Source: Branchiostoma floridae
Lineage: Eukaryota; Chordata; Leptocardii; Amphioxiformes; Branchiostomatidae
Reading direction: 5' to 3'
Length of the DNA stretch: 64,000 bases
Assembly: GCF_000003815.2 (NCBI RefSeq)
Contig: NC_049981.1
Coordinates: 12,245,625-12,309,624 of the forward strand
Shown here: positions 457-63,600 of the stretch, one piece after another
Numbering within the stretch: position 1 is the stretch's first letter
Layout of the letters: each line of letters starts with the position of its first letter
Program-made: the position numbers and the translations under genes
The notes under the pieces: generated by a model
What the model was told of the DNA's origin: nothing
The model's input: only the letters and a program-made list of their open reading frames with translations
Databases searched by the model: none

Positions 457-5391
<4,935 letters not shown>

Positions 5392-14037: not shown

Positions 14038-15534
14038 CTAGACAATGTCCATCTCTACTGGCCAGTGGTCACTCACGGCCTCGGCCTGTGGTCAACGAAA
14101 TACCTGTTATCAAATGCTATTTTTGTGAGTTTGTAGTTAATATGATAAAGATACATAGTATTAAATGATATAACGTTACAAAGGTTGTGCAGTTACCTAC
14201 TTTGTACGTAGCAATTTTTCCCCTTGTACACTGTCTGGATAGTTATTCCTATCAGCAATGTTATAAATGTCCAAGAAAGTGCTCTAACGTATAAAGAAAC
14301 TCCAACTGGTAGTAAAGTTAAACAGCCACTGTATGGAACCCTGCTGTCCTTCTAGAACTCTGATCACTTGACACGACAGAAGAAGAAAAAGAAATGGGAC
14401 AAAACAAAAGAGAAGACACGCCACTTTCACTTAAGAAGTTTATCGTCCGGTACTTGCTATTTGACCTCTTTTCTTACCTCTGATTGTGTCAGACGATATG
14501 CAGACTTGTAGTCGAAGACGCCGTAGCTCCTAACAGACGCTTGGAGCTGGGAGCCTGCAACGACAAGTCTGAAAAAAAAATGCAACATAGACTCATAAAT
14601 CATAAACTTAAATTCTACTTGCACAGGCATGTCAATCAACTCAAGATGTTGTTTAATATGGTTATTTTTGCGTTAGAATACTGTCAGCTTGTGTGGACTG
14701 ACAACTCCCTAATAGATAGTCTATTTCCACTGTCTCTGTCCTTTCCCAGCTTACTGATGTTTCTGGAATGAGACTGTCCCTCTTTCTAGGATGCAGTCAG
14801 AACAGAAACTTGACATGCCCAGATAGCCAAGAAAAGCCCTGTACAAAATCCCTGAAACTCTTAAAAGTCTGTAATACGATACTATTAGAATCGCTCTCTG
14901 ACAGCGTCACCAAAAAGAAGAAAGCGGGTCAAACCCCCCTGTGTCCAGACTATGACACTGAAATCTACTATGAGCGTATGCGTACTGGTCATAAGCACAG
15001 TGGGTGCTCTTGACGGTTGTGTCAGCCTCGTTCCCGATCAGCCATTCGAATCGGTTGTCCGTCCAGATTCGAATGCTCGACCAATCAGCGGAGCCCACGT
15101 AGCTGCAGTCGGCGTTGAGATCTCCGAAGATGAGGATGTCCTCGTCTCCCCAGCGGTCCAAGGCGTCCAGGTACACGTTGTACAGTTGGTTATTCTCCAC
15201 CACTGCGTCATCGGGATCGGCGTGCAACGGGACCAGCACAAAGTCTTGCACAGCTAGAGACAAATGGAAAATAGCGGAGTTCTCAGCTACAGTCAGTTGC
15301 TGAATTGTGAGGTAAGAGACCATAGTAGGTAAGTGATACCACTAGTGTAGTTTTACTAAAGGGTTTTCAATGCCAGGGATACATCAATCTCACTCATGTA
15401 TTCATTCGTCAAACCCACACAAAAGAGTACTGAATATGGGTTGCTTGAGATACTGCCATTAGGCGTACTTTATTAATTGGTTGTCTATTAAACCTTCATT
15501 GACGTTGTATGTGGTTGTGTGTGTGTGTGTGTGG

Positions 15535-30300: not shown

Positions 30301-33300
30301 ATAAGAATTCTGGTAATTCTTTTGATATAGCTTAGTTGATGGGATGTTTATTGGTCAAACGTGTTAAAAACGAAGTCAATAAACAATAACGGCGGCCACC
30401 CTAAGATGCCCCCTGCCCTAAGATGCCCGGATATTTTGCTGAGCTTATTATGCATAAGTACGCCGTGTTTGTTACCACTGACTATGATGATTAGAAAGGT
30501 AAATAAACCAAGTCCAAACAAACAGCTTTTTTTTCTATTAAAAAAATATTTACACATATTCACTTCCCTTTTTTTTTAAGACAGAATTTTCACAATAATG
30601 TTGGTAGCGCCGAATCACTGTGGTCACCTGTTGCTAGGTATTGGTGGCTCGTGTCCATAAATAAACAACCAGTAAAAAACAGCCAGACAACTGTCATGCA
30701 CATAAGAAATAAAGCTTCACAAAACAATACAAATATTGGTCTTCAAATGTTTGTTGAGTAGAAGACCGGCCATAGAAAAAACAACATCAGCATCACCGCC
30801 GTTGTTTTCCCCAGGGAGTGTGGCCCCGCAGGTGGCGGACGAGCGAACGACCAAAAGATTTGTTACTCTAACAAATGATTCGTACCGTCTATAGAAATGA
30901 AACTTCACAGAGTGATGTCGAATATGTTTCCCAATATGTACACAGAGTTTTTTGTGATTTTGGCGTTGTCGTTTTTCGTAATGATTTTGTTAGTCGGGCC
31001 GCCGCATTCACTGCATTTCGCCCATTTCCCATGAAAACACGACCTGGATTGTGAAAGATTTAGTCCTCCTCGCGGGAGACAAGAAGCACACAAAATCATA
31101 ATTCTACTGTCAAAAGAAAGCTAATACTGTAGTATATCACAAAATTAGAATTTTTATTTATGTTTGTCTGAATTGGTCACCAGCTTCCGAAGAGAGCAAA
31201 TTCCAAAAGAGGGGCAAGTTAGGGCGCACTGTCTAACGCTGCTCAAAATCGGAATTTATATTCACGATAGCGTCCTCGGTGTTTGCCAGTTGTAACGCGG
31301 AGGGTGAAGGTTTCATGAACAGTATGGATGCTTTCCCTATTCAAGTATGGTCTCTAGATGAATGTGTTAAAAATTCATTGATCAAAACTTGACCACTAGT
31401 GGGCAACTAGTGATGAAGCGCCGTGAGTTCGAGCGCGTAAAAAAGCGGGCATCTTATGATTAAAAATAAGTTCATCCATGTTTTCAGCCATCCATTCATT
31501 CGTTCACCTTTTTATTCATTCATTCATTTATTCAAATGTATCCGTTATAAAGTTATTAGACGTACCTGTAGCCTGTTGTATATCCGCCAATGCAGCAGCT
31601 GCCCAGATATAACGTAGTCCGAATGTCACAATAACAGCCGTAGACAACCCTATCCCGCACAGGACCAAGATGTTCCAAAAACTGTTTAAGTAGACACGAC
31701 CGTTTTTCCGTATGCCCCAAATCTCGTGAAGAATGTTGTAAATGTAGAAGACCAGGAACAAGATGTGGAAAAGCATCTGGACGAAGTCGTCTGTTGTTTG
31801 GTACTGGAACAGTCGGAAGGTCTGGATGTTTGGCTGCAGTTCAACAGTGCCCCCTGGGATGTACTGCAGGGTGATGACCATGGTGCTGAACAGCTTGACG
31901 TCAGGGTGGTAGAAGTTGGCCCGGAGGATGAGAGTGTCGGAAACCATCAGGATCCAGTTGGTCTGCTGTAGGAGGTCTATCATTGCAGCAGCCTGACCGG
32001 AATCCTGTGGTAGGTCGACTGTTGTGAAGCATTCTACTGTTTCAGCCATTGCCCCGTTTCTGAAATATGTAAAAGAATAAGAATTATAACATTTAATACC
32101 TAGCAAAGAATAAAAGCAAACAGATGGAATATGGATCAAGATACATTCTAAGGATTTAAAATCAACTAGAAAGGCCGACATTTGCTTAAGAGCAAATACA
32201 GCATATTTCAGCCATACCCCTTCCCACGCAACATTGGACTGTTCCAAATCACCCCTGCGCAAAAATGGAACATCTTAACAGTACATTATCCCCCAAAGTG
32301 GACTAGTAATTGTGAATTGATTCCAGGTCAAAACAGAGCTTGCTTCTATTTTTCAGAAAATGACAATAATCACACCTTCCATTCAGAAAATTGTCATCAT
32401 GACTGAAAATTGTTGAATGACTTCATGTAATGTCATTAACAATTTTCAGTACGATAACTAGGTGTAAGTTTAAAAAAGTATAAGCTCCTTGTGATGTGGG
32501 TACATTTATTATTGCAGTGAACTTTTTTTATTCAAGTAGGGCATACGATTTAATAATTATCAAGCAGGTGCAGGTACTGTATGAGCGTTTGTTTTCTTCA
32601 AGCTGTAAAACTGTAAAACTGTTTTACTTTGTATGCAATCAGCCATCGAGCCTATTCATATTTTAGTTTAACAACTTCCTGCCAGACCCGGAAGATACGA
32701 TTGAACCTTGTTCGAGGATTTCTTTTCGGAGGTCAGTCTGTTCATACCCTGGCACTGTCACTGAGAGTGTTTTATTGGGCTGAAACTCTGGCAGTTTAAA
32801 GTTACTTACAATTTAGATGTTCAAAGTTTATGTCAAACAACAACAGCACTAGAAACACCTACATTTCCTCTGGAGAAAATACAGCAGTTTTCTCAAGTTC
32901 CAGTCCAGTGATAGAAATGTGGCCACTATAGACAGGTGGTCACTATAGAGAAAATGCTGATCTCTTGACTAGGAGCCATACGTTACACATGATTTCAGTA
33001 CACTGGTCTTTACTCACATAAACATTGCACAGGTAAGCCAATTGTTTAGATGTACAATTAAGTTCAAATAATTCTGAAGAGAAATATTGATGAGAAAATA
33101 ATCATTCTCGCCACTGTCTAACTTATAATTACGTATCAAAACTAAACGCAAACTGTCTAACTAACGCACCTTTCGCCGAGTTGATCAAAGGGCCGCCGGC
33201 TATAAATCAAACTCGGCTGTTGATTAGACTTAGAGTTTCAAACAGTCATGTGCTGTGTGCCAGTTGACAGCGAACTTCATGCTACGTGATGTATTACATT

Positions 33301-36300
33301 GCTTGGACCTTCTTTCAGCGGTGCTTCTATAAAATATTTAGACTGTAACACTGAGTCCCACATGTTTTATAGAATAGAATTTGACGCAGAACAGCGTTTT
33401 TTGCTGGGTATTTTTCTTGAAACATGTCCGTGGGAATATCAGCGAGGCGGCGACGTAGGGATATCAGACCGCCAACAAAAGTCGCACGGCGGCTAACGGC
33501 GCAGCGAAGATACTAGCGCTGTAAATAAGCGCTTCAACTAAGGATGGCAACCCGGACAATATTTTTGTATACTGTTGAGCTAAGTAAAGTTTGTTGTTTA
33601 TGAGGTTTTAGTTGTCTTTGAAGCTTTGACCCGAAATATTTTTATGTCAAACTGCTGAAGAGAAGTAAGTGACTGCTACGATTATCGTAGATATGGCCCT
33701 AAAAAAGCTGATAAAAGAAGCCTTCTCAATAGTCTAAAATGCAAGAGCTTCCGGGGTCCCCCCACAGTGGCCCTATACCCGTGGACCCCGCCAGGGACAT
33801 TCGGCGGCCCCCGGACCCCTGCCCGACGCTTTGAAAAAATCCTGGCGAGAAGTCTGTACAGCCTGAGTCTTCAAGTTACCGTATTGTGTGGTCCCGCTTA
33901 TGAATATTAATTAGCCTTCGCTTTCCTCTTCGCTGATTGGCTGAACCATTAATTGAATTAACTCTTCCTGCCGGCTAGACGCAGGTGCAGATGTCGGCTC
34001 TGTGGGGTGAACGTCCGAAAGGTCATGGCATGGAGAATGAAAGAAAACCAATTTCCCCTCAAAAAAAGTGCTGTAATTAAGCCTTTTACAGTACTTTATG
34101 CCAAAAATTTTACTTGGATCATTTTACCAACTATCTTATGCCTATATCTATACCAAATGTTACTCATACCAGGGTACAGGGGGGCAAAATATACCGTTAT
34201 AAGACCGTCAGCAACAGTCGCACGGAGCTAACAGCGCAGCGAAAATACCATCGCTAGCGTTTCAACTTCGGATAACAAGTTATAAGTACTGTTGAACTCA
34301 GTAACGTTGAAGTTTGTTTTTAGTTGCCTTCGACGGTTTGAACTGAAATACTGTTACGCTTAACTCCTGAAGAGAAGTTAAGTGACTGCTGCGATTATCA
34401 TAGATATGCCCCTAAGAACTGATACAATATAAAGCCTTCTGAATAGTCTAAAATGCGAGAGCTTTAGGCGGGCTTCGCTCCCCCTGGGGCCCCCCCAACG
34501 GGGCTCTGCCCCTGCACCCCGCCGGGCTGGGGCCTTTCGGCGTTCTTCGGCGGCCCCCGGACTGACGCTGTAAAAAAAATTCTGGCGGGAACACTGCTAT
34601 ATACGGGATCATGAGGCCCCGCTTATGAATATTAATTAGCCTTTGGCCTCCTCTTCGCTGATTGGCTAGGTCTTTGATTCAATTAACTCTCCGGCTGACG
34701 CGCACAGGTGTGGCTCTGTGCGGGGTCACGGAAGGTCACGTCAGGAGGCCAAAAGAAAACAAATTTCCCCTCAGAAAAGTGCCAAAATTAATCATTTTAA
34801 AGTTGTTTATGTCAAAAAATTTACTTGAATCTTGTTACCAAGTATCTAATGCCTATCTATACCAAATTTCAGGTCATTTAATTGTAATACCAGGGTACAG
34901 GAGCCAAAAGTGTCATTTTTTGGTCAAAAATTGGCCAAAAATCGCAAAAATAAGCATTTTGTTGCACTGTACACCAAAAGTGTTATTGAATTTATATGAA
35001 GGGATTATCAAGACACATCTGTGTCAAATTTCAGCTCATTCGGTTGCAATACCAAGGTACAGGAGCCAAAAGTGTCCTTTTTTTGTCAAAAATTGGTCAA
35101 AAAATCGCAAAAATTAGTATTTTGTTGTACTGTACACCAAAAGTGTTATTGAATTTATATGGGGGCATTATCAAGGCACATCTCTGTCAAATTTCAGCTC
35201 ATTTGGTTGTAATACCAGGGTACAGGGGCCAAAAGTGTCCTTTTTTGGTCAAAAATTGGTCAAAAAATCGCAAAAATAAGCATTTTGTTGTACTGTACAC
35301 CAAAAGTGTTATCGAATTTATATGGGGGCATTATCAAGGCACATCTCTGTCAAATTCCAGCTCATTTGGTTGTAATACCAGGGTACAGGGGCCAAAATAT
35401 ACAGTTTTGGTTTAAAATTGACCAAAAAATCTCAATAAAATCATTTTAGAGGCAGATATGAAAAAACTGAGAAAAAAGCATCAAGGTATTAGCCCACTCT
35501 ACCCCTGTGCCGAATTTCAGGTCATTCGGTCCAGGAACGGCGGAGATGAATCACTTTGAAGATTTGACAGGAGAAAGAAAGAAAGAAAGAAAGAAAGAAA
35601 CATTACGAATACAATATATTTCACCATACTATGTATGGCTGAAATATAATGAAGAGACATCCAAGTGTCCGAGAAAGTCATACTACAACTGTTTGTAGTA
35701 ACTTATTTCGCTGAAGATAGAGATATAGACCACACCGTTGGCAATAAAGGCAGACGTCATGTACAGTTGCCTTGCGCAGCAGAGGGCCCAAAATAAAAAT
35801 ACCATTGTAGTGCCAACTACAATCCTTGAAAATGACGGCCCAATCTGGAGACTTTGTTTTAGAAGGAACAAGTAGGGTCTAAGTTTTCCCAATTCTGGTC
35901 AAATCCTGTTTAATCCATCAGTTTAGTTCGCGTGCGGATGGATTTGAGGTGTTGGGTCCTTCGGTTTGAATGAGGAGAAATTTGGTTTCAAAGGTGAGAT
36001 GTCTTCCATAGAGCGAGCTTTCCTCAGATTTTGAGTTGGTTTACTTCCTGTTTTCTTTCAATGCTTATAAAGAAGACCCTTGTGAATTTCTGTTTGTCAA
36101 GACTGTGTGATTGAGATTGGGATTAATTAGTACTTTAACATGCTTTCCTATGGACATGTCTAACTGTAGCGTCTGCCATAATAACCGAGACGGGGGCCGA
36201 TGCTGACTACTGGAACCTTTGAAAAGTTGTTGACATTACATAAGTTATATATATGACGTTATGTAAGGCACGTTACATGGCCATTTCAACAGTGAAATAG

Positions 36301-44800: not shown

Positions 44801-47800
44801 AACCTTGGCAGCCACCTGACCCCATGACGTATCCAGTTGAACAGGCACAGTCGAAAAAGCCGTGACCGTTGATGCAATCGGCGTTGATGCCGCAGATGGT
44901 TGGATTCTCCAAACACTCGTCAATGTCTATCAAAAGCAACAAAATGCTTCGTTAAATCCTATTGAAAAAGAATTATTCCTGATACCTAGTCGATATTAGT
45001 TGTCACTGGGACTAAGACCGGGTGTTCGTTTAGCAACATTAGCCTGGATATCAACTTATATTTTTGAATGATTTTTTCCTGAGCAAATACTGATCCTAAA
45101 GGTCTAATTTTCTGCTAGAAGAAGCATGTGTATTTCTAAAATCTGGCAAAACCTGTTACCTCTGGCGTGCTTTGACCTGAAGTTAACCTCCATATTTCAG
45201 CTGACAGCTGAGCTGATACATTAGGACAGGGGATGAAATGCTGGTATCATGAAAATCTTTTGGCTGTAGCTCGTTAAAATGCTGAAGTTGACCTCCAGCT
45301 TTTTGAATCAAATGAACCTGACACATCCAGCTTTGCCATTGGGTTAAAGGCTTGAGGTTTTGAAATGTAGCTATAGGTAAATGTGTTTGTAGGTAATGAA
45401 ATGTATGTAAATGATTGTTTTGCATGGTTTAACTATGTATCGCATAGGGAATTACATTTGCTAGTCGCTAGCCAGTAGGTTTTGCAAAATTTACCGTCAC
45501 AGTTGTGGTCATCAGTATTCAAGCTGTACTCATGCCTACAGAGGCAGTGGTAGCTCCCAACAGTGTTGACACATGTCTGCTCACATCCTCCGTTTGATGA
45601 CGCACATTCGTCCACATCTATTCGTGAGGCAAAATTGGCGCATGACGTCACACTTTGATTATTTGAAATACACCAAGTTAGCTTTCCTTTTCAGCGCAAC
45701 TGAGGTTAATATGTGTATCAATTATCTATATATTGTAATGTACATTCACCAGAGGCCGAGCACGTATGAAGCCAATTTGTACAACACAAATATCAACTTC
45801 TATTTTCCACGGAAAAAGTGCAGTCCATATACAAATGACAGTTAATTACCACTGACATGACAATTTTTTGAGCAATATTGCTGACTACATTTGGATAATT
45901 CAATAAAATACTTAATTCCCTGTGATAATGAAAAAAAATTCCACACGTTTGAACGTCTACATTGTAGTTTAAAGGAATGTCTCATTTGCTACAATGAAAC
46001 TCTAATTTATCCTTGACATGGATAAAGATGTCCTACCAATAAAGTTATGTCCCGAGTAAATACTTCACTACAGGCACAACTGTAACTTCCTACAGTGTCA
46101 CGACTACAGCCATATCATCAGAGAGAAATTATTATATCATGTTATGTATATGTATGTATATATGTTCATTTACCTTCTTCTCACGGTAATGACCAGACCT
46201 TTGTCTAAAAAAAGCTTTATTTTAGATCGCAGCTTCAACGTTTCTCATACCTTCGCAAAAAATGCCCAACTCTGTCCATGATCCATTTGACGTGCATGAT
46301 CTGATTATTACATCACCGGAAATGACGTGATATCCCGGGGAACATGGGTAGGTGCAGTTCTCCCCCAGCAGATAAGGACAGTCACACACAGGTCCGGTAG
46401 TGTTGGCTTGTGTCGGGGGGTCAACACACACTCCAGAAAATCCACCTGATTAGACAAAGAAATGCTTAAAGTCAATGATTATCTTTTTTTACCGATTTTA
46501 ACATTCTACTGAATATTGATTTATATCCTGTCGCTTCATGTGCCATAACCCTTTCGCAAGAAATATTTTCAAAACCCTAACAACAACAGTCATAGTAACG
46601 AAGTAAAATAAGGCTTCACCCTGTGTGCAGTTGAACAGAAAGTCTCCGGGGACACCTCCAACCCTGTAGCCCACTCTACTCATGCCAGTCATAGGTTGAG
46701 GGTCTGTCGAGGTCAAGAATGGTTCCACCTCTCCCTCCTTGCCCATACTAAAACTCCCTCCTCTTGACCAGCAAATCCAGAACCTCCGAAACTCCTCAGC
46801 TGATGTGATATCTGAACAGTACAAAACTAGAGATACTAACAAATCTGGCGCACAAATGAAATGTACAAAAGGCATTGGGAATTCAAATTTATAGACAGAG
46901 AGGCCGTATGGATAAGAAAATCTACTTTTGTCATTGACCGTGATGGGGGTGGAGCTTATTATAATTAGCCATATTTGGGACCGCAGTCGTCTTGCTACCG
47001 AGATACTGGCAGCTTTGGAAAGTCGGTATTGCAAGTCGGCATTAACACCGAAAATCGATATTCAAATTATTCCTAACGGTACAAAATATAAAAACATGCA
47101 TCGTCGCATCACCTTGTTTCCAGGTTGTTGCTACCTTGGTTAGAACACCGTCGTCAAATCTGGAAATGCCGGATCTGCCATTCCTGATGTATATACGATA
47201 TTGGACGTCTTCAGGCGTGTGGAGGCGGATCTGAAACCACCCGATGGCACCCGTGCTGATCTTGATCTCAAAGATGAATGGTGACGAGGTGACCTCAGGG
47301 AGGTCATAGGTCAACTTGCGTGCAGGGTCAAGGTGTTTTGAAGTCGAACAAGATACTGAGTAGAGGTAATATGTCAAAGAGAATATTTAATATGCCCAAT
47401 TCCATGCAAAAATGGACTGATCCCAAATCATCCCTGTGGAAAAACAGAACATTCTAACATAGCTTCTGTAAGAATACGAAATATTGCAAAGTCACCTTAT
47501 GCAGTTCGAAATGGAGCCGTTTGGCGCCAGCTCCAGCGTGTTCTCGTGTTACTGTGCTCTAAGGGAGCACAATTAATTGGCATCGTAAATAGAAATGCGT
47601 CTAATAATCTAAAACGTTCAAGCTCAGGAGTATCAGATGCCATGCCGTTGCATAGCAACTAGTTGATACTTCTGTTTAAAAAACCCATCACGTTGTACAT
47701 ATTTTTACAACTCAATGTCATGACTAACATGTACCCGTGCAGTTATGTCCGTCTCCATCCAGTTTGAATCCGTCATTGCAGGAACAGATGTAACTGCCTA

Positions 47801-49984
47801 CAGTGTTGGTGCAGGTCTGGGCACAGCCACCGTTCAGAGTAGAACACTCGTTGATGTCTGAAAACAATAGAAACATAATGAATATGCTTAAAGCTGGAGG
47901 AGATTCCGTTACCGTTGGTTGATTATTTTTCAACATTCCATTGTTTTACTGTAGATGTACAATGTAAAGTGACATTTTAAAATGAAATAATAGATTTTTA
48001 TGTGGAGAACTCTTGCAAATGTTCTATTAGAACATGTTTAGTACCTTGTTCTTGGCAGAAAAAGTTCGTTTCAGTCCAAATCCCATTTGCCGTGCATGTT
48101 CTGGTTATTACATCACCGGAAATGACGTGATATCCCGGGGAACATGGGTAGGAGCAGCTCTCCCCCAGCAGATAAGGACAGTCACACACAGGTCCGGTAG
48201 TGTTGGCTTGAGTTGGTGGGTCAAAACATACCCCTGGATATCCATCTGAATAGACACAGAAATGTTAACTTAAAGGTCAATGATTACTTTTACTGAATTT
48301 CACCCCTTACCGAAGACTGATTCATATTATGTTTCTTTATATGTCATTAACCTTTCGCAAAAATATGATTGAAAAATTCTAACAACGATAGTCATAGTAA
48401 TGAAGCAAAATACTTCACCCCGTGTGCAGTTGAACAGAAAGTCTCCGGGAGCATCTCCAGCCCTGTAGCCGACTCGACTAATAACAGTGATAGGCTGAGG
48501 GTCTGTCCAGCTCATATAGGGTTCCACCTCTCCACCCCTGCCCACACCAAAACTCCCTCCTCTTGACCAGCAAATCCAGAACCTCCGAAACTCATCAGCT
48601 GATGTAATTTCTGTTACAAACGAAAGTTACTAACAAATTTGACATTTACTGACATATTTTAGGTGAAGGGAGCTTTAGGAAAGGTACATACAACGGAATG
48701 TGCGCTATACTTTATCTCGATGGAATGATTTCCATAGTCAATGCAGAAACTTCATATTTTTGTTGTAAATGATAGAGGCTTTATATTGGAGACATAAGCA
48801 GCTTGACAAAAGGCAAGTTCTCATAAATATGCGTTGTACTATTCCTATTCACCTAGCGACGGCAGTAGAACAAGTCAGTATTGTGACGTCCATCATTGAC
48901 AAAATCGATATTGAAAACCTAACTATTCGATATTCCCAACATACAAACAAGTGAATCATCGTATCACCTCGTTTCCAGCTTCTTGCTACGGTGCTGGTAA
49001 CTCCATCGGCTTTTTTGACAATCGTGGACCCGCGAGACCTGATTAATACACGGTAGTGGTCGTTGTCCTGCGTGTGGACACGGATTCGGCAGTACCCGGT
49101 GGTGCTGACCTTGACTTCAAAGATGAATGGTGATGAGGTGACCTCAGGGAGATCATAGGCTAGCGGGTCTGGAGGTTCAGAGTGTTTTGAAATCGAACAA
49201 GATGCTGGGTGGAGATAACAAGTTAGAGAAAACGTTAAGATTTATCTCACAAGTCCGTTTTTGAACTGGATCAGCTATATGTGATGTGTATACCTAAAAA
49301 TTAGACACAACCAATCGTTGTGGGTGAACTGGAGGTATCTTGAAAACCTGTGAGCTGCTGTGATGGCGTAATAGACATATGTCGATAGTTAAATGTGGTA
49401 CAACGTTACCGAGTAAGCTATGAGTTAAGACTGATTTGTTTTCGTTTTTTGCAATTGTGAGAAATAAATAGCCACATGCAGCTCAAGGTCGTTTACACCA
49501 TGGATACGCTAATAATACTGGCCAGTGCAAGAAGCGGGATGCCCTTATAGTGAGCTGTTGGAGAGGTTACCGCGTCCTTTAGTGTTTTCCAGTAGTCATC
49601 ATGAGTATCAGTCACAGCACCGAAGTTTTAAAACTTTACACATACATACATGTATATTTAATTTATTTCTCTAAAGAGTTGAATCATGCACAAAATATAC
49701 ATATAACTCAAATAATTCCTGATAATGCATAGAGAATCAACAAGCTATATATAGTATATTATTCTTACAATTATGTAAGAAAGGGTTCATTTGACTCTTT
49801 GGCTCTGCTTGCGCAGTTCATCGTACGGTTGATAACGCTGAAGGTACCATTTTTTCCCTGATATGGTCTATGAATAAATAATATGTCATGTCTGTTATTG
49901 CTAGACCACACCCTAACGACGCTTATGTTTACCTTTGTTATTAAATAAGAAAACGAAATAACACAAGGGTAGCACTGAAGACAT
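27355..49984 (-). CDS. PKD1-like receptor-channel with FAMeT, CCP, EGF, GPS, PLAT and polycystin channel (32 exons)
   Basis: Large membrane protein of the polycystin-1 family. Exons in reading order: 49933-49984, 48968-49204, 48419-48610, 48045-48245, 47735-47857, 47113-47355, 46620-46811, 46251-46445, 45495-45617, 44804-44926, 44516-44638, 44169-44342, 43640-43797, 43438-43525, 43082-43278, 42614-42844, 41678-42254, 41309-41487, 40596-40832, 40187-40438, 39591-39751, 38967-39056, 38296-38818, 37825-37975, 37322-37539, 36930-37104, 36403-36547, 31566-32059, 29933-30093, 28715-28969, 27661-27808, 27355-27521. The sum, 6585 nt, is in frame: 2194 aa. Every junction phase agrees. The start is the ATG of a short signal-peptide exon with a phase-1 donor fitting the first FAMeT exon. 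Eleven membrane segments follow the PKD1 plan. A function as adhesion-type sensor or cation channel is inferred from the family. Exon 1 is the least certain part. Confidence 0.87.
29350..29600. repeat. Degenerate AT-rich tandem repeat
   Basis: Recurring words like GAGATTTTTCGAAACAATCTTAAG at about 20-25 bp spacing, in the intron between exons 29 and 30 of the PKD1-like gene. Heavily diverged. Confidence 0.45.
33480..34900 (+). repeat. Tandem pair of about 720-bp repeats
   Basis: Two diverged direct copies, about 33480-34205 and 34205-34900. Shared landmarks: CTAACGGCGCAGCGAA / CTAACAGCGCAGCGAA, GAGAAGTAAGTGACTGCT, AGCCTTCT.AATAGTCTAAAATGC, a GC-rich block CGGCGGCCCCCGGAC, and AATTTCCCCTCA near the end. 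It lies in the large intron between exons 27 and 28 of the PKD1-like gene, and probably belongs to the same composite element as the next repeat. Confidence 0.7.
34860..35505 (+). repeat. Tandem repeat with about 162-bp period
   Basis: Four near copies starting with AAATTTCAGCTCATTTGGTT at about 34867, 35027, 35189 and 35350. Each carries ACCAGGGTACAGG, CAAAAGTGTCC, a TTGGTCAAAAA run and ACACCAAAAGTGTTAT. Long reading frames across it are products of the repeat, not a gene. Confidence 0.85.
35505..35655 (+). mobile_element. Repetitive-element tail with (GAAA)n and terminal hairpin
   Basis: Follows the 162-bp repeats: GAATTTCAGGTCATTCGG, GAAGATTTGACAGGAG, a run of GAAA units, then the hairpin ATATTTCACCATAC...GTATGGCTGAAATAT. 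The same tail is found at 3370-3540, so the repeats to its left and this tail likely make one long non-autonomous element. Confidence 0.5.
38967..40438 (-). CDS. Exons 20-22: PLAT domain
   Basis: Exons 40187-40438, 39591-39751, 38967-39056. Typical PLAT/LH2 features: [19 protein letters not shown], then [34 protein letters not shown], and the closing [13 protein letters not shown]. In PKD1 and relatives this intracellular domain lies between the first and second membrane segments, exactly as here. It is expected to bind lipid or regulatory proteins. Confidence 0.9.
40596..43797 (-). CDS. Exons 13-19: GAIN-like region, GPS and first membrane segment
   Basis: Exons 43640-43797, 43438-43525, 43082-43278, 42614-42844, 41678-42254, 41309-41487 and 40596-40832. 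The end shows the GPS pattern: [17 protein letters not shown], then [12 protein letters not shown]. The expected cleavage point is His-Leu followed by Thr/Ser/Cys; here the next residue is His, so self-cleavage is doubtful. TM1 follows ([19 protein letters not shown]). The upstream part has the beta-rich look of a GAIN domain, but that is judged mainly from position. Confidence 0.8.
44169..44926 (-). CDS. Exons 10-12: two EGF modules and a Thr/Ser-rich linker
   Basis: 44804-44926 ([13 protein letters not shown]) and 44516-44638 ([18 protein letters not shown]) are EGF modules of the calcium-binding type, 123 bp each like the other EGF exons. 44169-44342 codes about 57 residues that are mostly Thr and Ser ([28 protein letters not shown]), a likely O-glycosylated mucin-like stalk between the adhesion modules and the GAIN-like region. 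Confidence 0.85.
45495..47355 (-). CDS. Exons 6-9: second FAMeT-CCP-EGF cassette
   Basis: Repeats the order of the first cassette: 47113-47355 and 46620-46811 (FAMeT), 46251-46445 ([23 protein letters not shown]) and 45495-45617 ([19 protein letters not shown]). Long stretches of the CCP and FAMeT exons are near identical to the first cassette at protein and DNA level, pointing to a recent internal duplication of four phase-1 exons. In the FAMeT half the Trp seen in cassette 1 (SWTDPQP) is Ser (TSTDPQP). Confidence 0.85.
47735..49204 (-). CDS. Exons 2-5: first FAMeT-CCP-EGF cassette
   Basis: 48968-49204 and 48419-48610 code a farnesoic acid O-methyltransferase-like (FAMeT, Methyltransf_FA) domain, with [19 protein letters not shown] and [20 protein letters not shown] followed by [16 protein letters not shown]. 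This domain is found in many extracellular proteins without proven enzyme activity. 48045-48245 codes a CCP/sushi-like module ([20 protein letters not shown]). 47735-47857 codes an EGF module ([16 protein letters not shown]). All four exons begin and end in phase 1. Confidence 0.85.
49933..49984 (-). CDS. Signal-peptide exon of the PKD1-like gene
   Basis: Encodes [17 protein letters not shown] and one base, then GTAAAC. The hydrophobic stretch suits a signal peptide and the phase-1 donor joins the acceptor before 49204 to give Ala-Ser-Cys. The same segment recurs, degenerated, in the tandem array to its right. No transcript evidence; another first exon is possible. Confidence 0.6.
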
Positions 49985-50077
49985 TTGCTTCCAACCAGTG
50001 AAAAATTTTATCAGCATTTTTGAGAAAATATTATTTGCAGGTTTGAAGAAGAAATCTAAAATTTTTAGTTTACTGTG

Positions 50078-50111
50078 AGGTTTTGGACCTCTATGGAGAG
50101 GTCAATAACCC
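50078..50111. promoter_or_regulatory. Two inverted-repeat motifs upstream of the PKD1-like start codon
   Basis: AGGTTTTGGACCT at 50078-50090 and AGGTCAATAACCC at 50099-50111, about 95-125 bp upstream of the ATG on the minus strand. The second has one exact AGGTCA half-site and a diverged inverted half-site one base away (IR-1 spacing). They occupy the same place as the better preserved motif in each array unit. Confidence 0.45.
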
Positions 50112-51175
50112 TCCTTATCAAAAGATACTCTTTATCATATCATATGTCAATGATGTAGCTGTTCTGAACACAATGCCAAAATTTTTCCAACACAAATGAT
50201 TTTTATATATACTAGAGTATGGAACGTGTTAGACATGGCACTGCAATCTATTAAAGATAGAAACAGTCTAGATTGATAGAAACCTGGAAAAAAAGGAAGA
50301 AATATACATATCTTATTATTCGAGTATTCGATGAATAAAGAAATAAAAAGGTATGGAGGAGTTGGAAGAGTAGAGGGATTTTGCCGTATCTACGTACATA
50401 CGGGTAAGATTTGCGGTTAAAATTATTGTATCCAGAAAAAAGAGACGAAACTACACTTTATGTGCTAAAGGCGGTACTAGAAGACTAGATAATAAAAAAA
50501 TAGCTCTTTCTGATATCTATCTCGTAGATAAAATTTAGTTATCATATCGAAAGAACTGTATACAAACGATGCAACATGATATAGGGTTGAAGAAACAAAT
50601 ACATGAAGTTTGGTTGATTATACTAGCATTCACTTGTCGCTTGATGTAACCATAATACTACAGCTTGTTCCTGCGAGGGAATAATGCAAATTATGTATAT
50701 AAAAGGATTATGCTTTCCGTGTAAAATGATTTGCATATCAATGTGATCCAAGATGGTCGCGTAGTCTTCTGTCCTAAAATCTATTACTAAATCCACTAAA
50801 CATCTCCTTCAAAACCCACCATCAGCTTTTGTAGTGATTCAGGTACAAACGTAAGTATATAATTTTGTTTCACTGTAACTATTTCTATCGTTTTGACCTT
50901 TCATGCCGATATTTTCAGTCTCTGACGAAGAGGCAAACACACCATATTGGAATCATATCTTGAGATTTATCTTTTGCATTGTGTTGTAATATTGCTTATA
51001 CCGGTGGTGACTAGCTGAACTAACGTAGCAATATTTGTTAGTAATTCAGCAGGGACATTCTACTGTCATTCGGGGCACTGTCGTACTCGGCATTCCCAGG
51101 GCATTGTTTATGATAGTGTTGGCCTTAGCGGTGCTCCCGCTTCCTGCTACTATACCCAGATGGGAAAATGAATAA

Positions 51176-51522
51176 TGTAACGACTGTAAAGATAAACATA
51201 CGATTGAACATTTACTTCTGTATTGTAAAGACGTTGAAACATTTTGGAAAAAAGTTCTGTATCTGGTGGAACCGGTATACCAACCAGGACCTGGTACTAG
51301 ATGAAAATACGATTATCTACGGTGTGATGGAAGGCTTCCATCCTACTACCTCACTTTCACATTGTATATTCTGATGGCTAAATACTGTATCTATCTATGA
51401 TTTGTGAAAAACGTAAAGCCAAACTTTTTAGCCAAACGTATTTTAGGAACAGGTTAAATAACACTACAGAAATAGTCGAATACAATAAACAATGGCAATA
51501 CTTTAAAAGACAACAATCTTAG
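51176..51522 (+). pseudogene. Decayed LINE reverse transcriptase C-terminus
   Basis: Broken frame reading CNDCKDKHTIEHLLLYCKDV then ETFWKKV: the CxxC...H...C knuckle followed by FW that ends many L1/Tx1-type ORF2 proteins. After a frameshift it goes on with LDENTIIYGV, LYILMAKYCIYL, and EIVEYNKQWQYFKRQQS before TAG. At least two frameshifts and no upstream RT domain in the window, so it is a dead 5'-truncated copy. Confidence 0.65.
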
Positions 51523-51887
51523 TCAAACCATGAACACAACTTGAGCATAATTGCTTTTTATGTATTAACGTTATTATTATATTCTCTGTGCACTGTTATG
51601 TGAATGTTAATGAAGGTTGATTTAAGATTTTAAAATACAGGTCAAGAGCTGTTGACCTTCTTACAAATTTCTCTAGATGAGATAGAACTTGCAGAAATGG
51701 TCATATACGTGCCCATATACGTAAAGTCATTTGCATTAAATTAACAAAAGCTCTAAATATGTCATGGGGGAAAGAGGTCACCGAACTCTAGTTTTATTTC
51801 ATATCTATGTACATGTATATAACTCCCACCTCTCTCACGGGCACATTGAAAAGCGACAAGATAAGGCGCTATGTAACCCTGGGTATA

Positions 51888-51919
51888 AAACAAACAAACA
51901 AACAAACAAACAAACAAAC
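51888..51919 (+). repeat. (AAAC)n microsatellite, possible SINE tail
   Basis: About seven CAAA units. On the minus strand it adjoins sequence (51920-52080) with GGGCACGTCCGTCAGAAGGA that looks like an interspersed element; which class is unknown. Confidence 0.6.
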
Positions 51920-54900
51920 CTTCCACACGTAGTCCACAGGCGAGAATAATACAACAGGTAAACCTGAAGACTGAACCTCGCCGTAAAGCCATCCTTCTGA
52001 CGGACGTGCCCTTCAAAAGCCGACGGGAACAAGCGCGGGGACTCCCGTTAGAAATATGCTTCTGTTCCGGTAAAGCCACTCCTACTGATTATTTACCGTT
52101 TCAGTTGTGAATTAAATCAACAAATAGTATTTTCTCAGATATGTATATCTTTGGATAAAAATCAGCCAAGAAAATTAAACGATCCCCTTGCATTTTTCAA
52201 GCCATTCAAAAGTGATAGATTGGACAAATTTTGCGTCGTTATAATTTGAAAGGGTAGGGCGTTACCAATAGAAACTAAAGGCCACGCATTAAATTGCCCT
52301 TTCTTATCGAATTTGCTCCCGTAAATAAAAGGCGCCGACCATCATTCACCGATTTCTTTGTATCTTGAAATCGAGTCCTTCTTTTTTCTTAGCAATATCA
52401 ACTTTTGTCGATGTCACAAGCGCTTTATTCTTATCTATCTACGAGTTTACAATTTATGGGTTGAAAAAAGAACGTAAAGATACTCGATGTCCTTGGTTAG
52501 ACAATGGTGTGTATGATGATCTTTTATGATAGACCCACGAGAGGCGTTAGAGGTGGTCTGGTCATGTGGAAGTTGAAATGGGAGGACATCTCGGCACTTA
52601 GGAGAAAACGAAGATAAAAACCTCGACTTTTGCAATTATCGCACATTTTTTTACTACAAAATGACACAAGGACATTAATTTGCGTCCCAGCCGTGATATA
52701 TATTTGCAGTTTGTGGAACATTTTTGTAGACTCGAAAATAATATTTCAATGTTGAGGTTAATGACCTTTGTGAAGCAAGCGCCTTATTCTTGATCAATCT
52801 ACCATTTTTACAATTCTATGGTATAGATTGAAACAGAACATCATGACTCAATGTCCTTTGTGACTCAATGTTCTTGGTTAGAGAATGGTGTGTATACTGA
52901 TCTTTTACGATAGATCCGCTTCAGGCGTTATTAGATGTGGTTTCTTGATGTGGACATTGAAATATAGGAGAACGCCTCAGCAGATGATACTAAAAAAGAT
53001 CAATACCTCGACTTTTTCAGTTATCACAATTTCTTAATTTTTTGAGAACTGGAAATGACACAAGGGTAGCGCACATATCTTGCTTCCAAATCATGATATT
53101 TATTTACGGTTTTGCAGGCTGGAAAAAAATTGTTATTATGGAGGTTACTGACCTCTGTAGAGAGTATGACATTATTTCATACATCCATTATGTAGCTATT
53201 TTGAACACATCCCAAGACTGGTTGTATCTGCTTGTGTGACTGTACTTGAAAACCTAGACTAGATATCAGCAATAGTGTGCTTTGAAGGCATCCATCTTTT
53301 TTTCTTAACATGATCAAATTCTCCATCAATCAACCATTTTTACAATTCTCTGGTATAGATTGAAAACAGAACATCATGTGACTCAATGTCCTTGGTTCGA
53401 GAATGGTATGATTATCTTTTATGACAGACCCGCAAGACACGTTTGCGTTAGATGTGGTTTCGTGGTGTGGAAAAGAAAATGGAAGGATGCTTCAGTAGAT
53501 AATAACAAAAAAGATAAGTACCTCGCCTTTTTTTAGCTATCCCACTTTTCTTACTTTTTTGAGAACTGGAAATGACACAAGGGTAGCGCGCATGACTTGC
53601 TTCCAAACTATGATAATTATTTGCGGTTTGGAAATATTTGTGCAGGCTTGAAAAATATGTTATTTTATTGTTGAGGTTATTGACCTCTGTAGAGAGTATG
53701 ACAGTTCCATTATTCCATACACCCATCATGTACTATTTTGAACACATCCCAAGATATCTGCTTGTGTGACTGTACTTGAAAACTTAGATGTCAACAATGG
53801 TGTGCTTTGAAGGCGTCCTTCTTTTTTTCTTTACATGATCAATTTGTCCATCAATCTACCATTTTTACAATTCTCTGGTATAGATTGAAAACAGAACATC
53901 ATGTGACTCAATGTCCTTGGTTCGAGAATGGTATAATTATCTTTTATGACAGACCGCAAGACACGTTTGCGTTAGATGTGGTTTCGTGATGTGGAAATAG
54001 AAATGGACGACGCCTCAGTAGATGATAACAAAAAAGATAAATACCTCGACTTTTTTCAGTTATCCCACTTTTCTTATTTTTTTTGAGAACTGGAAATGAC
54101 ACAAGGGTAGCGCGCATGACTTGCTTCCAAATCACGATATTCATTTACGGTTTCGAGAACATTTTTGCCGGCTTGAGAAATAAATTTTTATTGCTGAGGT
54201 TGCTGACCTCTGTCACAGAGTATGACAGTTCCATTATTTCATCATGTAGCTATTTTGCACACACCCAGCAACTGACAATATTTGCAAGTGTGACTGTACG
54301 TGACGACCTAGGTATCAGCAATGGAGTGTTATGCAGAAATTGGTGTACACTACATGGCTTTATGAATCCATGCATTATTGATAATTCATAAGCATTGTTA
54401 TATATTTATTGGAGTCTTGAAGGTGTGAAATGCTCCACTGCAGTCTATGAAAGAGAGAAACAGTCCACGGTGAACGAAACTTATAGACAAAATTACGTAT
54501 TTCCATTGTTGCAAAAGAGAGATATGAATAAAGAAATAAAAAGGTATGATATTCAAAGCCGAAGAATAGAAAACGTTGCGTGTCTACGGGTAAGATCTCG
54601 GAAAAAGATTCTTGAATCTTGAAAACAGACCAAAACTAGTACTCCACTTTCTCTGCTAAAAACGGTACTACTGCATATTTTACGCTGTTTAAAAAATATA
54701 ATCTGAACAAATTTTGTGTCGTTATGATATGACAGGGTAGGGCGTAACCGATAGGAACTGAAGGCCATGCATGCAGGTGTCCCTTTTTATTGAATTAGTT
54801 CCCGTAAATAAAGTTCACCCATCTTGGAATTGAGTAGCTTTTTCTTAAAGTGATGAACTTTTGTCGATTTGTTATCAGCAAGTGCGTTTTACAATTTCAT

Positions 54901-55181
54901 AGTATAAAACAGACCATAATGTTACCCAATGTCCTTTATGAGAATGATGTGTAGAATATAATCATTTTTCATTGATCCACGAAATATAGTAAAAGTAGTC
55001 TCAGGAATTTTATAGGAGGACATTATAACATATTGAGAAGTATGTACCCAACTCTTTTTCATTTGAATAACTAAAGAAAACAAATTGATAGACACAAGGG
55101 CAGCACGCATGACAGGTATCCAAACCGTGATATGTTTTTGTAGTTTAGAGAACATTTCGGACAGCCTTGAACAAAATATGG

Positions 55182-55194
55182 AGGTCATTGACCT
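55182..55194. promoter_or_regulatory. Perfect IR-1 AGGTCA motif in the array
   Basis: AGGTCATTGACCT: two AGGTCA half-sites inverted with a one-base spacer, the arrangement bound by EcR/FXR-type nuclear receptor heterodimers with RXR. It lies about 75 bp upstream of the ATG-like position of its unit. Variants are at 52755, 53142, 53674, 54197 and 55822. Confidence 0.5.
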
Positions 55195-55945
55195 CTGCGG
55201 AGAGTATCAACGAATAATCTATGTATATCTTTTGATGAAAATCAGCAGAGAAGACGATCTCCTCGCATCTTTCACGCCATTCAAAAATGATTGAACATTT
55301 TTTTTTGTCGTTAAGCTATGGTAACCAATGGAAACTGAATGCCATACATACAAGTGTTTATTTTTATCGAATCCGTTCCTTATCAACCATTTTTTTGAAT
55401 CTTGAAATCGAGGTCCTCTTTTTTCTCAACATGATCAACTTTAATCAATTATCATCAAACGCGTTATTTTCATAAATGTACCATCTTGATTGTATGGTAT
55501 AGATTGAAAACAGAACGTCATGTTACTCGATGTCCTTGGTTAGAGAATGGTGTGTATAACGGTCTTTTATGATCGATCTACGACAGGTGTTAGAGGTGGT
55601 GTAGCCATGTGGAAACGAGAAATGAAAAAAAAAAACATCTGGGCACATGGGATTTAAATGCGAGAAGTACCTTGAATTTTTCAGTTATCTCAGTTGTTTT
55701 TGTCCTTTAATAATAAACAAAATAGACATAAGTGTAGAGCGTATGACTTGCACCCAAACAGTGATATCTATTGGCAGTTTCGAGAAAATTTGTTCAGTCT
55801 TGAAAAAATGTTGTAAAGTTGAGGTTATTGACCTCTGTGGAGAGTCCGACGTCCATCATGTATTTTGAACACACCCAACAGCAGACTGCATCTGCTTGCA
55901 ATTGTGTGACGACATGACAACCTAGATATCAGCATTGAAATGATT

Positions 55946-57536
55946 GAAGGAACTAGTGTGTGCTACATGACTTTTTGAATCTACATGAGCGGTGGTATTT
56001 TTATTGTAAAATAGTTTAGAAATTGCACGAATGTATTCCCTAGGGAATAAGTTTTGAAGTAACCTTTGGCTGGTTGGTCTTTGGATCAGAGAAGGCCTTT
56101 GTTCATACATGTACCTGTTCACACAACTTGGTTCTATCAGCACAGAAAAACACTGTCTTAATCAATGTTTTTATTACGTTTCTGGCAAATGAAAATGATA
56201 TGGTAACATTACAGATTTTAATCTCTCCTTTGTTGCTGACAAGAAATAACTGGGAACTCTATAACATAGATATAAGTTTTGAATACGATTTTCGCTTCAC
56301 CTGTGGATACAATTATATTTTGAATTTGATTTGAAGCTCGTGTTCATTTTCAAGATGTTCGTACAAAGCAGAAAAGACCATGACTGTACACATTGAAAGA
56401 AACTACTCATTCACAAAACAAACGATCCACACAATTGCTTTCATCTTTATTTCATGAACAGTCATAAACATACATATCAAACACACTCTTGCCACATCTG
56501 AACACACAAAACAGTCAGGATATAAACATTGAGAATATGTACAGGACAAATGGTTTTTGTATTCTAACTTTAGAAGTACGTCTATAACAATGATTCTTGG
56601 TGATATCTTAAAGCACAAACATGCTGTTTGCTAGTACGGTTGATCTTGTAACAAATTGTTTGTATGGCCATAAGTACAACAAAAATCCAGGAACTAGAGG
56701 CTGATTGTCAATTATCATTGTCTGTCTGTTGAACCTGTTGATATTCCTACTTTATACGAAACATGCACTTAACCTCAAGTAGAAAACCATAATATTAGAT
56801 GTTGAAGTCCGTTGGTAACACTTGTGCGTCTATCTGCACTTCTACTTTCATCCTATATTCACTATCAAAATGTCATGTCTCCGCCAGTCTTAGCACTTTC
56901 ATATATGTATATATGTATTTACAAAGTGAAACAATACCATGCATTCTTGAAATAGTTGAACTGTAATATCCAACAACAAAATTGGACTCACCCAAATTTT
57001 CGACTGCACAGCATCAGTCTTTGTCAATGAATGAACAATCCACTTCTACCAACACAGATGAACTTTCAAGTTAATTTCAAGTTAATACCATGCATGTTTT
57101 TTACAATATCACAAGCGCAAAAATTATCATAAGTATAAAAACTGACAGACACATTTTCGCTGATCGAAATTGACACTGCCTACAATTTGCACGAAGTGCT
57201 TATGAGATACACCTTTTTCTCTTCTTGATAACTAACTAAAGCCGATAGAAGGGGCTAGCAAATGAATTTTTCAATGCATGGTTAAGCCATCCAAAAATCA
57301 CTTCAAAGCACATTTACCTGCATTCCAAACCTCAACTATTAACCCCCACTGCAAAACTGGATTTGCCAGGTTTGTTCTGGTTCAAAAGACGAAATGAGCT
57401 GTCATTCATTCAACTACAGGTCAAAATATCGGCGCTATTTTCTGCCATATTGCAAGTAGACATGCTTCTGTCATCCCTTACAGAAAACTCGACCATTATG
57501 ATGAAAATTCGCCAAGAAAAAAATGAGTAGATATCA
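55946..57536. other. Intergenic region right of the array, with 3' flank of the second PKD1-like gene
   Basis: 55946-56400 shows nothing recognisable. About 56400-57400 shares short blocks with 26600-27350, the matching place behind the first PKD1-like gene, so it is probably 3' UTR or flank. The stretch next to the gap (57400-57536) does not match the expected last exon. Confidence 0.5.
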
Positions 57537-60600: not shown

Positions 60601-63600
60601 CAACCCTATCCCGCACAGGACCAAGATGTTCCAAAAACTCCTAAAGTAGACACGGCCGTTATTCCGTATGCCCCAAATCTCGTTAAGAATGTTGTAGATG
60701 TAGAAAACCAGGAACAAGATGTGGAAAAGCATCTGGACGAAGTCGTCTGTTGTTTGGTACTGGAACAGTCGGAAGGTCTGGATGTGTGGCTGCAGTTCAG
60801 CAGCGCCCCCTGTGATGTACTGCAGGGTGATGGCCATGGTGCTGAACAGCTTGACGTCAGGATGGTAGAAGTTGGCCCGGAGGATGAGAGTGTCGGAAAC
60901 CATCAGGATCCAGTTGTTCTGTTGTAGGAGGTCTATCATTGCAACTGCCTGGCCAACATTCCGTGGTAGGTCCAATGTGGTGTAGCACTCTGCCGTTCCA
61001 TTCATTGTCCCGTTCCTAAAACACATACAAGAATAAGAATTGCAACAATTAATTAGCAAAAACAGAAACTCATATATATAGAGAGTGATAAGGAGAAAGA
61101 GAGGGAGAGGGAGTGAGATAGTCAAAGAGGGAAAGACCGTATCTTTGAGAGAAAAATCTCTCAACCAAAACGGGGGCCGATATTTCACCCGTTGCTGACG
61201 TCACACTTCTAAAGAAGTCAAACCACATAGATGTCGGGTCATTTCAATTTGAAAAAAATAAGAGGACTGCTCGTTGGTTTATTGTGTGTACTGAAATAAT
61301 GTAAAACATGTTAATTACACCCACAGCTGAACTTCCATTTAATGGTGAGAATTCATTAGGTAGTAGACATACCTAAAATCGTCCGCAGAACTTGTGTTCC
61401 GAATGTGTGAACACCTGACTCCACCCAGTCGTTCCAGAGTTGCATCTCTTTGCCTGGCCGTCAGCTCAGGATACAGCTTAGAGCCACTACGTTCCAGGTC
61501 TGAGTCTATGGGGTCCTCTAAAGGGGAAATGAACATCCAAATGGTAGAAGGTAAATGAGAGAATTCCAAGCTAGTTATATTGATGGAGAGTATTGTACAA
61601 CCAATAAACCAGTCTAAAATAAATAAATTCACCACCGACGTTTGTGTATGTATCCGCACCTATGACTCAAGATACTTTCCATGGGAATGTTTTGTGGCAT
61701 GTTGGTAGCTATTGAGGTCCCGATTACAGACTGCGATTTGAGACACCGAAGTCCGTTCCTTTCGTAATGGTAGCTCTCGTTTTGCAATGTATTTCTCAAG
61801 CTTATCCATAGAAACTCGACATGCACAGCAAAAAGTGAACACTTTCAGAATGAAAAGCGAAAAAGACAGCTTCAACTTGGCTCGTCAGGAAAGAGATGAG
61901 GCTAATTTAAAACCATATGTGCAAAACAAAACAAAAACTTTAAAATCGATGAGGTTTTCTCACCGGGATAAATTGTGGTTCTCTCTAGGCGAACCGGACC
62001 GATCCGGAATGCGTTTGTTCCAACTGGAAACTGTTTGTCCAGCCACCTCAGCTTCTTCCTGCTGTATCCACGCTCTGGATGAAGGGACGGCATCAGTTCA
62101 GATGACAGCCATTTCCAAGCACCGCCCACAGTAGTCACCTGCAGGCAAGACGTGTGAAATATTTTTGTGTGCAATTTTTCGTTTCAAAACGAGTACGGAT
62201 CGCGGAATAAGCATGATGGTAAAAAGGCAAGGCATAGCACATATATAATGTTGGATAACACATATTTCTGCGGAAATCACACGTAACGATATCCTACACC
62301 AATCCCTCCTTTCTCTTGAAGAATGGTTGGTGCTACTTTCGACCAATGTTAAAGTCGGTGGTCCCTAACGTCACGTAATCAATGTGGTTGGTTATTCATC
62401 TTGAAGTAGGCCAATAAAATCGGTGATTCAGCATCAGTTACGAGGGGCATTCAATAAGTAATCCACCTGACCCACTTCCAGTTGTCTGATCTAAATAAAA
62501 TTTTGCATGTGTAATGAGTCATATCTCTATGGGCTATGTTGCAAAAAACAGCTCTGAACTAATTGCGGTTACTGATTTACTGGTGTTTGAACTGAGTCAG
62601 GTGTGAAATGGACCAGGTGTGAAATGGAGCAAGTTGAGTGTCGCGCAGTGATCCGGTTTTTGTATTTGAAAGGACGCACACCAAAGGGGACTTTTGATGA
62701 AATGAAAAAAACTTATGGTGATGATGCCCCATCATATGACCTTGTAAAACGCTGGCATCCTGAATTCAAACAAGGTCGGAAGTCTGTGGAAACAGCTCCC
62801 AGACCTGGTCGTCCCTCTTCTGCCATTAATGAGGCATCTGTCGGAGGACCAACCTGGGATGTCCTACAAGAACGGTGTCCAGAGCTACATCAAATGATGG
62901 GAGAAATGCAAAACTCTGGGTGGTTCCTATGAAGAGAAAGACTAATAACTGTGCCAAGTTTCATTAATCTCCTGCTGTGGGAAATGGGTCAGGTGGATTA
63001 CTTATTGAATGCCCCTCGTAGGTGCATAGCGTATTTTAACAGAATTTTACAATATAGCTTTAAAATCCCGAAGAACTGCTCACATAGTGTCGATGCTGTT
63101 GAAAAAGAGATGAAACGTGTTGCATGATGTTGAACATACCTCCTCGTGTCCCGTTAACAGGCTATGCTGTAGCGAAGTCCTGACGTAGTACGCGTTTACA
63201 TCCGTGTCCAACACCCCGATGTAAAAATACGTCAGGCTGAAGATCAGCAGCAGGACCAGGCGGACCAGGATGTCTCTACCCTGCGTCATCCGCTCGGGCC
63301 AGTTCGGGTCGTGGTCGGCTTTCTTCGGCTTGGGTGGTAAAACCCTTGCTGCAGGGACTTGCATGGCAAACGAGGAATAATACGTTTTTCTCAGTTATTT
63401 AAAAAACTGTTAAAACTATCTAAGTGAGAGATAGTCTATTATGGTAAAGATATTGTAAAATATAGGTGTAGGTGACACAAACATTGATACATGATGAACG
63501 TTTAAAAGCTTGTGTAAACTCTTTATCTTCACTTTAAACAGTGTCCACCCTTTATCATCCTCATAACGGGAGCAAGCTGGTAAAAATCCCGACCACTACT

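Follow-up and report, generated by a model that had tools for sequence, protein, structure and literature searches.

The 64,000-nucleotide stretch of Branchiostoma floridae DNA analyzed here (the window, C3:12,245,625–12,309,624, from a genome of 513 Mb in 431 contigs) carries on its minus strand a gene that is probably polycystin-like, G1, and upstream of it an array of degenerate repeats. The locus raises the question of what part of the gene that array was made from, and whether it multiplies the first exon or the sequence on the promoter side of that exon. A preliminary description of the window had taken a frame near 49.95 kb for the promoter and signal-peptide exon and the array for copies of both. 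Our analyses confirm that the units are homologous to that segment, and indicate that the exon itself probably lies elsewhere, at 51,992–51,920 (minus strand).

We consider it likely that the promoter and first exon were duplicated in tandem, partly before the genes of this family diverged, and that the copies were then subject to birth and decay. The units are homologous to one another and to a segment of intron 1, their blocks have a recognizable order, an exon is conserved beside them, and in the searches made they are restricted to the starts of four related genes. Those genes are G1, G3 (a second place on C3), G7 (on C7) and G164 (on C164); a further gene, G2, lies between G1 and G3.

Composition of the array and its homology to intron 1

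The degenerate array extends over ~52.1–56.0 kb and fills nearly all of the space between the exon-bearing block X and a block at 56.1–57.5 kb. At least six degenerate units had been reported upstream of the gene, and a profile search recovered six, here termed B, spanning 52,434–55,968. The homology of the 49.9–50.5 kb segment to these units was also upheld: self-comparison found 49,955–50,100 and 50,201–50,355 similar to the array (blastn E values of 3.8e-8 and 1.3e-7), and a profile trained on the six array units alone, with the segment excluded, matched 49,934–50,172 at E = 1.6e-17. The real sequence scored 58.9 bits, compared with 3.1 for the best of 200 dinucleotide shuffles of 49.2–52.1 kb. 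The homology is longer than first described, as the B-like segment (B', 49,935–50,172) runs colinearly into a second block, E (50,111–50,697); a portion of E is found again at 54,365–54,670. The spacing of the array units is irregular, and Tandem Repeats Finder listed no such array, its longest period (500) being below the unit length. From low to high coordinate, the blocks of the window, all on the minus strand, are as follows (UTR, untranslated region).

48,936–49,204: start of exon 2, whose phase-1 acceptor, CAG/CATCTTG, lies after 49,204; the low coordinate marks where the query stretch ended and is not a mapped exon end
49,935–50,172: B', partial copy in intron 1, matched by the profile; holds the non-conserved frame and has counterparts in intron 1 of G3, G7 and G164
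50,111–50,697: E block in intron 1, between the intronic B' and exon 1; also in G3 and G7
51,911–52,178: X block, the best-supported exon 1 with presumed 5' UTR and proximal promoter
52,178–52,437: A block, copy 1, adjoining X on its upstream side (block map)
52,434–52,785: B unit 1 (profile and block map)
52,791–53,304: B unit 2, recent, 84–86% identical to units 3 and 4
53,322–53,829: B unit 3 (profile; identity comparison)
53,847–54,355: B unit 4 (profile; identity comparison)
54,365–54,670: E block copy of module 2, its adjoining X missing (block map)
54,661–54,890: A block, copy 2 (block map)
54,886–55,235: B unit 5 (profile and block map)
55,205–55,259: X remnant of 55 bp, upstream end only, without the exon (E = 1.2e-4)
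55,254–55,473: A block, copy 3 (block map)
55,469–55,968: B unit 6, the outer end of the array (profile and block map)

Identification of the probable first exon

The best window match to each of the other loci was the block from ~51,915, which aligned to G7 at 74% over 762 positions, to G164 at 71% over 671, and to the two G3 copies at 70% over 741 and 75% over 396 positions. Its frame in G1 runs from an ATG at 51,992 to a last base at 51,920 on the minus strand (MALRRGSVFRFTCCIILACGLRVE) and is followed by the phase-1 donor GTTTGT. The same exon is present at three other gene starts, in four copies with the same A block adjoining, and its frame is uninterrupted in each of them (two in G3, one each in G7 and G164); more diverged open copies were found in G2 and at offset 128.3 kb of C3. 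C3, C7 and C164 together carry seven intact copies of exon 1, the window copy included; these are 67, 73 or 79 nt long, all leaving a remainder of one on division by three, and each stays open up to a GT in phase 1. An eighth intact copy, MSSRHEIVVRFICCIIFIYAASVN followed by GTAAGT, lies beside another related gene. Nonsynonymous divergence (dN) was below synonymous divergence (dS) in 20 of the 21 pairwise comparisons of the seven copies, a comparison that leaves aside a disrupted G2 copy (offset 78.8 kb) and the exons of two further relatives, L040 (broken) and L041 (one intact, one doubtful). A third extra relative, L042, had no X match in the 5 kb upstream of its exon 2. The acceptor of exon 2 is in phase 1 in all five genes, G1, G2, G3, G7 and G164.

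A microsatellite, (AAAC)8 at 51,888–51,919, abuts the exon 1 donor in the window (GTTTGTTTG); the donors of its paralogs read GTATGC, GTAGGC or GTGGGT.

The frame at 49.95 kb has an ATG at 49,984 and a phase-1 donor, GTAAAC, near 49,932 that is compatible with exon 2; its hydrophobic peak is 2.36, versus 2.83 for the 51.99 kb exon. Its counterparts are not kept: the frame stops after nine codons in G7 and after 19 in G3, where there is no donor at the end, and G164 has no nearby ATG. Among 15 B copies examined (one not covered at the site and two without an ATG near it), the 49.95 kb copy alone has a phase-1 GTAA donor, and a lenient filter accepts some phase-1 GT in five more copies, namely B1, B2 and B4 in the window and two from G3. 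A strict filter, requiring a hydrophobic core and a phase-1 GTA or GTG donor and counting nested ATGs separately, returned 32 candidates when the two strands of the 64-kb window were taken together. At this rate of 0.25 per kb and strand, ~0.7 would be expected by chance in the 2.9-kb stretch, in which two nested candidates sharing one donor were found. From these sequence comparisons, exon 1 of G1 is probably 51,992–51,920 and not the 49.95 kb frame, which is most likely part of a repeat copy in intron 1.

These results alter what had been proposed for the array. It was indeed built from the 5' end of the gene family, and in G3 promoter-side DNA and signal-peptide exon are duplicated whole, but the exon taken as reference was probably the wrong one, and within the window the likely first exon is not multiplied: a single intact X is accompanied by the 55-bp remnant, which lacks the exon. 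Nor did the frames of the array units prove to be conserved exons; they differ between units, the recent copies B2–B4 excepted, and this applies to the hydrophobic start MRAALVSINLFSLVIQ that had been pointed out at 55,110. The statement that the array donors are in the wrong phase holds only in part: three of the six units lack a phase-1 donor of this kind, and B1, B2 and B4 have a phase-1 GT under the lenient filter, the one in B4 (GAG/GTATTT) appearing in a second filter too.

Distribution of the blocks in the genome

Two DNA queries located the repeats in the genome. With the 1051-base array query (53,300–54,350) there were 13 matches: the window accounted for five, among them the query itself, G7 for four, and G3 and G164 for two each. 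The 801-base query (51,900–52,700) also gave 13, of which the window held five, G3 three, G7 two and G164 three. With self matches counted, 13 of 13 in each search thus fall at four related gene starts, the counts being lower bounds and the search seed-limited, and the fear that the array might be a genome-wide satellite unrelated to the gene was not realized. In G1, G3, G7 and G164 the repeats all lie upstream of a related exon 2; G164 is on the opposite strand, so the orientation of its repeats relative to the gene is the same as elsewhere.

Within 234 kb around these genes, B matches (E ≤ 1e-3) and A matches (E ≤ 0.01) were found at the four starts only, and G2 had neither an A nor a B match. 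X matches there were limited to the four starts, G2, and an exon-1 copy before another FAMeT unit, and E had a few weak matches elsewhere, so that E may carry a repeat fragment. The profiles of X, A and E were built from these four loci and match there by construction; the first-round B profile was made from the window array alone, and the other loci were therefore found independently. In the 5 kb upstream of exon 2 in the three further relatives, two gave only weak B matches (E values of 0.001–0.03).

In plus-strand order the module reads B-E-X-A. G1 has the order B'-E-X-A-B-B-B-B-E-A-B-xrem-A-B (xrem being the X remnant), G7 has B'-E-X-A-B-half B-E-A-B, and G164, in which the E block was not found, has B'-X-A-B-A'-B-A'-B. 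The outer modules of G1 and G7 are without the X exon. G3, with B'-E-X-A-B-E-X-A-B', has two complete modules whose X ATGs, at C3:12,386,397 and C3:12,384,332 (minus strand), are 2,065 bases apart, and exon 2 begins near C3:12,381,480. The two G3 exons, G3a and G3b, are 73 nt each and end in phase 1, fitting the phase-1 acceptor of exon 2.

An intact exon-1 copy (MATRQDVVTRLTIILICVSSIK) at C3 offset 128.3 kb (~C3:12,374,000; L015) is flanked by the G3 exons on one side and by a downstream FAMeT unit on the other, and may mark the start of a separate gene or a start internal to G3.

Age, relationships and constraint of the units

Most B units are 51–76% identical, both within and between genes. 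Higher values were found for B2, B3 and B4 of G1 (84–86%), which are present in G1 only, for G3_B1 versus G3_B2 (80%) and among the array units of G164 (80–92%). In the B unit tree, which covers the units other than three G164 array B units and G3_B2 (the A tree likewise being without G164_A2 and A3), the B2–B4 cluster (97/100) is the sole starred branch. Another group joins the B copies from intron 1 of G1 and G7, with support of 94/91, slightly under the star mark of the tool, which suggests that the intronic B copy predates the split of these two genes. Gene labels on the unit tree were no more clustered than shuffled labels. Judging from these sequences, the array seems to be partly older than the gene split and partly local.

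Conservation within B is highest in a palindrome, AGGTTATTGACCT (also written AGGTTATTGACCTCT), which we take to resemble an inverted-repeat nuclear-receptor site. Its conservation peak is within chance, as 26.5% of 2000 permutations equal or exceed it, and we dropped the palindrome as a candidate for a selected regulatory site on this account (0.265). The peak of X was also within chance (0.219 of 1000 permutations), and the best 15-base window of A was borderline (47 of 1000, 4.7%). Between G1 and G7 the array is no better conserved than the intronic E block, with 75% over 253 aligned positions for A1, 67% over 338 for B1 and 76% over 283 for E, where the E value comes from a local alignment, which favors the better-matching portion of E, and the B1 units compared are not necessarily orthologous. 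Since no extra constraint was found with confidence, the array would be mostly decaying duplicated promoter-side DNA, that is, largely passive upstream sequence that may add regulatory sites.

Explanations for the array

Our proposed explanation is that a module of ~2 kb, B-E-X-A, in which X is the likely first exon with its 5' UTR, was duplicated in tandem, presumably by unequal exchange, and at least in part earlier than the divergence of the G1, G3, G7 and G164 starts. X-A would be the active promoter. G3 would have kept two complete modules, each with an open and phase-compatible first exon, and hence two possible promoters; in G1 and G7, X would have been lost from the outer modules; and in G1 a later amplification of B would have produced a promoter-side array without a spare copy of the likely exon. 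Alternative starts are accordingly plausible in G3 and unproven in the window.

Several observations weigh against this explanation. Differences among the seven exon-1 copies are nearly equal by codon position (0.280, 0.232 and 0.280), and because there is no third-position excess, the coding signature of exon 1 rests on open frames, length modulo three and a moderate dN/dS. The G1 donor, AAG/GTTTGT, is off consensus, lies beside the microsatellite and was rejected by the strict donor filter owing to its T at position 3, so that G1 might use another start. The phase-1 GT sites in B1, B2 and B4 count on the same side. In the unit tree the deeper forks lack resolution, with 8 of 11 inner branches open, and the gene G3 itself may be short or composite, given the other intact exon-1 copy downstream of its first exons.

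Were the 49.95 kb frame the real first exon, with GTAAAC as its donor, the array would consist of copies of its promoter and exon. The frame is open, with a hydrophobic peak and a donor that fits exon 2, the G3 copy retains a partly similar peptide, and the odd donor of the conserved exon makes it conceivable that the intronic copy was recruited in G1; however, the early stops or missing donor or ATG in G3, G7 and G164, the number of such candidates expected by chance, and the conservation of the 51.99 kb exon beside A at three other gene starts render this improbable. An array that supplies G1 with alternative first exons, in the manner of Ugt1 or the clustered protocadherins, is very improbable. 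Related genes do hold paired X exons (two intact in G3, one intact and one disrupted in G2, one intact and one doubtful in L041), and half of the window units combine an ATG frame with some phase-1 GT under the lenient filter, but the window has a single intact X, its outer modules consist of A and B without the X exon, the frames of the B units are not kept between genes, and the other half of the window units lack such a donor.

The array could also be conserved regulatory DNA that multiplies binding sites, which is compatible with tandem duplication of the module. The persistence of copies at corresponding positions in all four gene starts, the extent to which the array fills the space from X to 56.1 kb, the palindromic stretch of B and the borderline window of A are in favor of such a role, which we nonetheless regard as rather unlikely, given that the peaks of B and X are within permutation chance and that the array blocks are conserved no better than intronic E between G1 and G7. 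There is very little chance that a satellite or transposable element came to lie here fortuitously. The units are tandem and degenerate, and E has weak matches elsewhere in the 234 kb, but the matches of both genome searches all fell at the four related gene starts, with the orientation relative to the gene the same throughout, A and B matches in the 234 kb were confined to those starts, and two of the three further relatives gave only weak B matches. The satellite or transposon reading was rejected as neither a high copy number nor dispersed copies at unrelated sites were found in the two genome searches, E alone not having been searched genome-wide.

The gene and neighboring features of the window

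G1 probably forms a single polycystin-like gene that combines a signal peptide with FAMeT, Sushi and EGF exons and a polycystin channel; we assume that the channel exons share a transcript with exon 1. Pfam matched the channel exons at 31528–32274 (PF08016, 5.9e-9, and PF20519, 7.4e-6) and at 29903–30235 (PF08016, 3.1e-5); neither PLAT nor REJ was matched among the subset of G1 exons scanned. Exon 2 by itself had no match in Pfam and would encode the first half of a Methyltransf_FA/FAMeT-like domain, as the exon following it (48327–48626) matched PF12248 at 3.3e-10. Its protein had 25 matches in the genome at E ≤ 1e-3, the top six all from G1, G3, G7 and G164 and two of these six being second domain copies inside a gene. 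The FAMeT-like exon pair is doubled within G1 (48327–49204 and 46498–47386, minus strand), the second copy having 53–61% protein identity, and Sushi and EGF exons adjoin it. A tandem repeat of 163-bp units (34863–35447, 3.6 copies, 90% matches) lies inside the presumed gene span.

Elsewhere on the plus strand, 3755–4348 and 12642–13082 are parts of two adjacent ligand-gated ion channel genes with Neur_chan domains, the second match being under the Pfam cut-off. Likely mobile-element remnants are an endonuclease/exonuclease domain piece at 14907–15341 (minus) and a Mos1-type HTH (helix-turn-helix) piece at 62591–62932 (plus), both from Pfam; a LINE-like peptide near 51.2 kb is a 33-residue piece without a Pfam match. 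Beyond the array, four pieces at 56095–57522 (~1.3 kb in total) share 80–89% identity with sequence upstream of G2 (offset 81.2–82.8 kb) and perhaps represent the 3' flank of neighboring polycystin-like genes. A run of N is present near 57.6 kb.

Comparison with known systems and implications

Among the papers listed in our literature searches, judged by titles and abstract openings, none dealt with this locus. In the Ugt1/Ugt2 and clustered protocadherin genes, as outlined in PMC2819257, tandem signal-peptide first exons with their own upstream DNA precede common exons, and UGT1A is presented as a tandem exon duplication (PMC9013439). To the extent of that outline G3 is similar, having two tandem signal-peptide first exons with their own upstream DNA; several intact tandem first exons are thus present in the sequence of G3 and absent from that of the window gene, whose extra copies have lost the exon, so that promoter-side sequence alone was amplified. 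Each of the two G3 first exons may plausibly be driven by a separate promoter and joined by splicing to the shared exons. A further difference is that the exon here is 67–79 nt and almost only signal peptide, whereby the choice of exon would hardly alter the mature protein. Local tandem duplications of the TERT promoter and upstream region reportedly occur in tumors and likewise place tandem upstream copies beside one gene, whereas the duplication described here is multi-block, old (most units 51–76%) and common to four paralogous starts in one genome. With satellite DNA the array shares head-to-tail degenerate units of up to ~520 bp, but its spacing is irregular, its copies are few and the matches found are at the starts of one gene family only. 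We file the finding as a further case of the known duplication of a promoter with its first exon.

The proposed tandem duplication of promoter and first exon offers, in one genome, a series of stages of duplication and decay: the duplicate is intact in G3, the extra copies of G1 and G7 lack the exon, and one copy is disrupted in G2. The analysis also corrects the likely start of G1, and a wrong first exon would mislead expression or knock-out work. A more tentative and in our view doubtful extension is that the module keeps duplicating while its exon, encoding signal peptide only, is free to decay, such that paralogs would differ in the number of their starts and the exonless copies would be amplified regulatory DNA. 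The counts that go with this extension, equally doubtful and taken together with it, would be two alternative starts in G3, and in G1 and G7 one start accompanied by exonless copies of the promoter.

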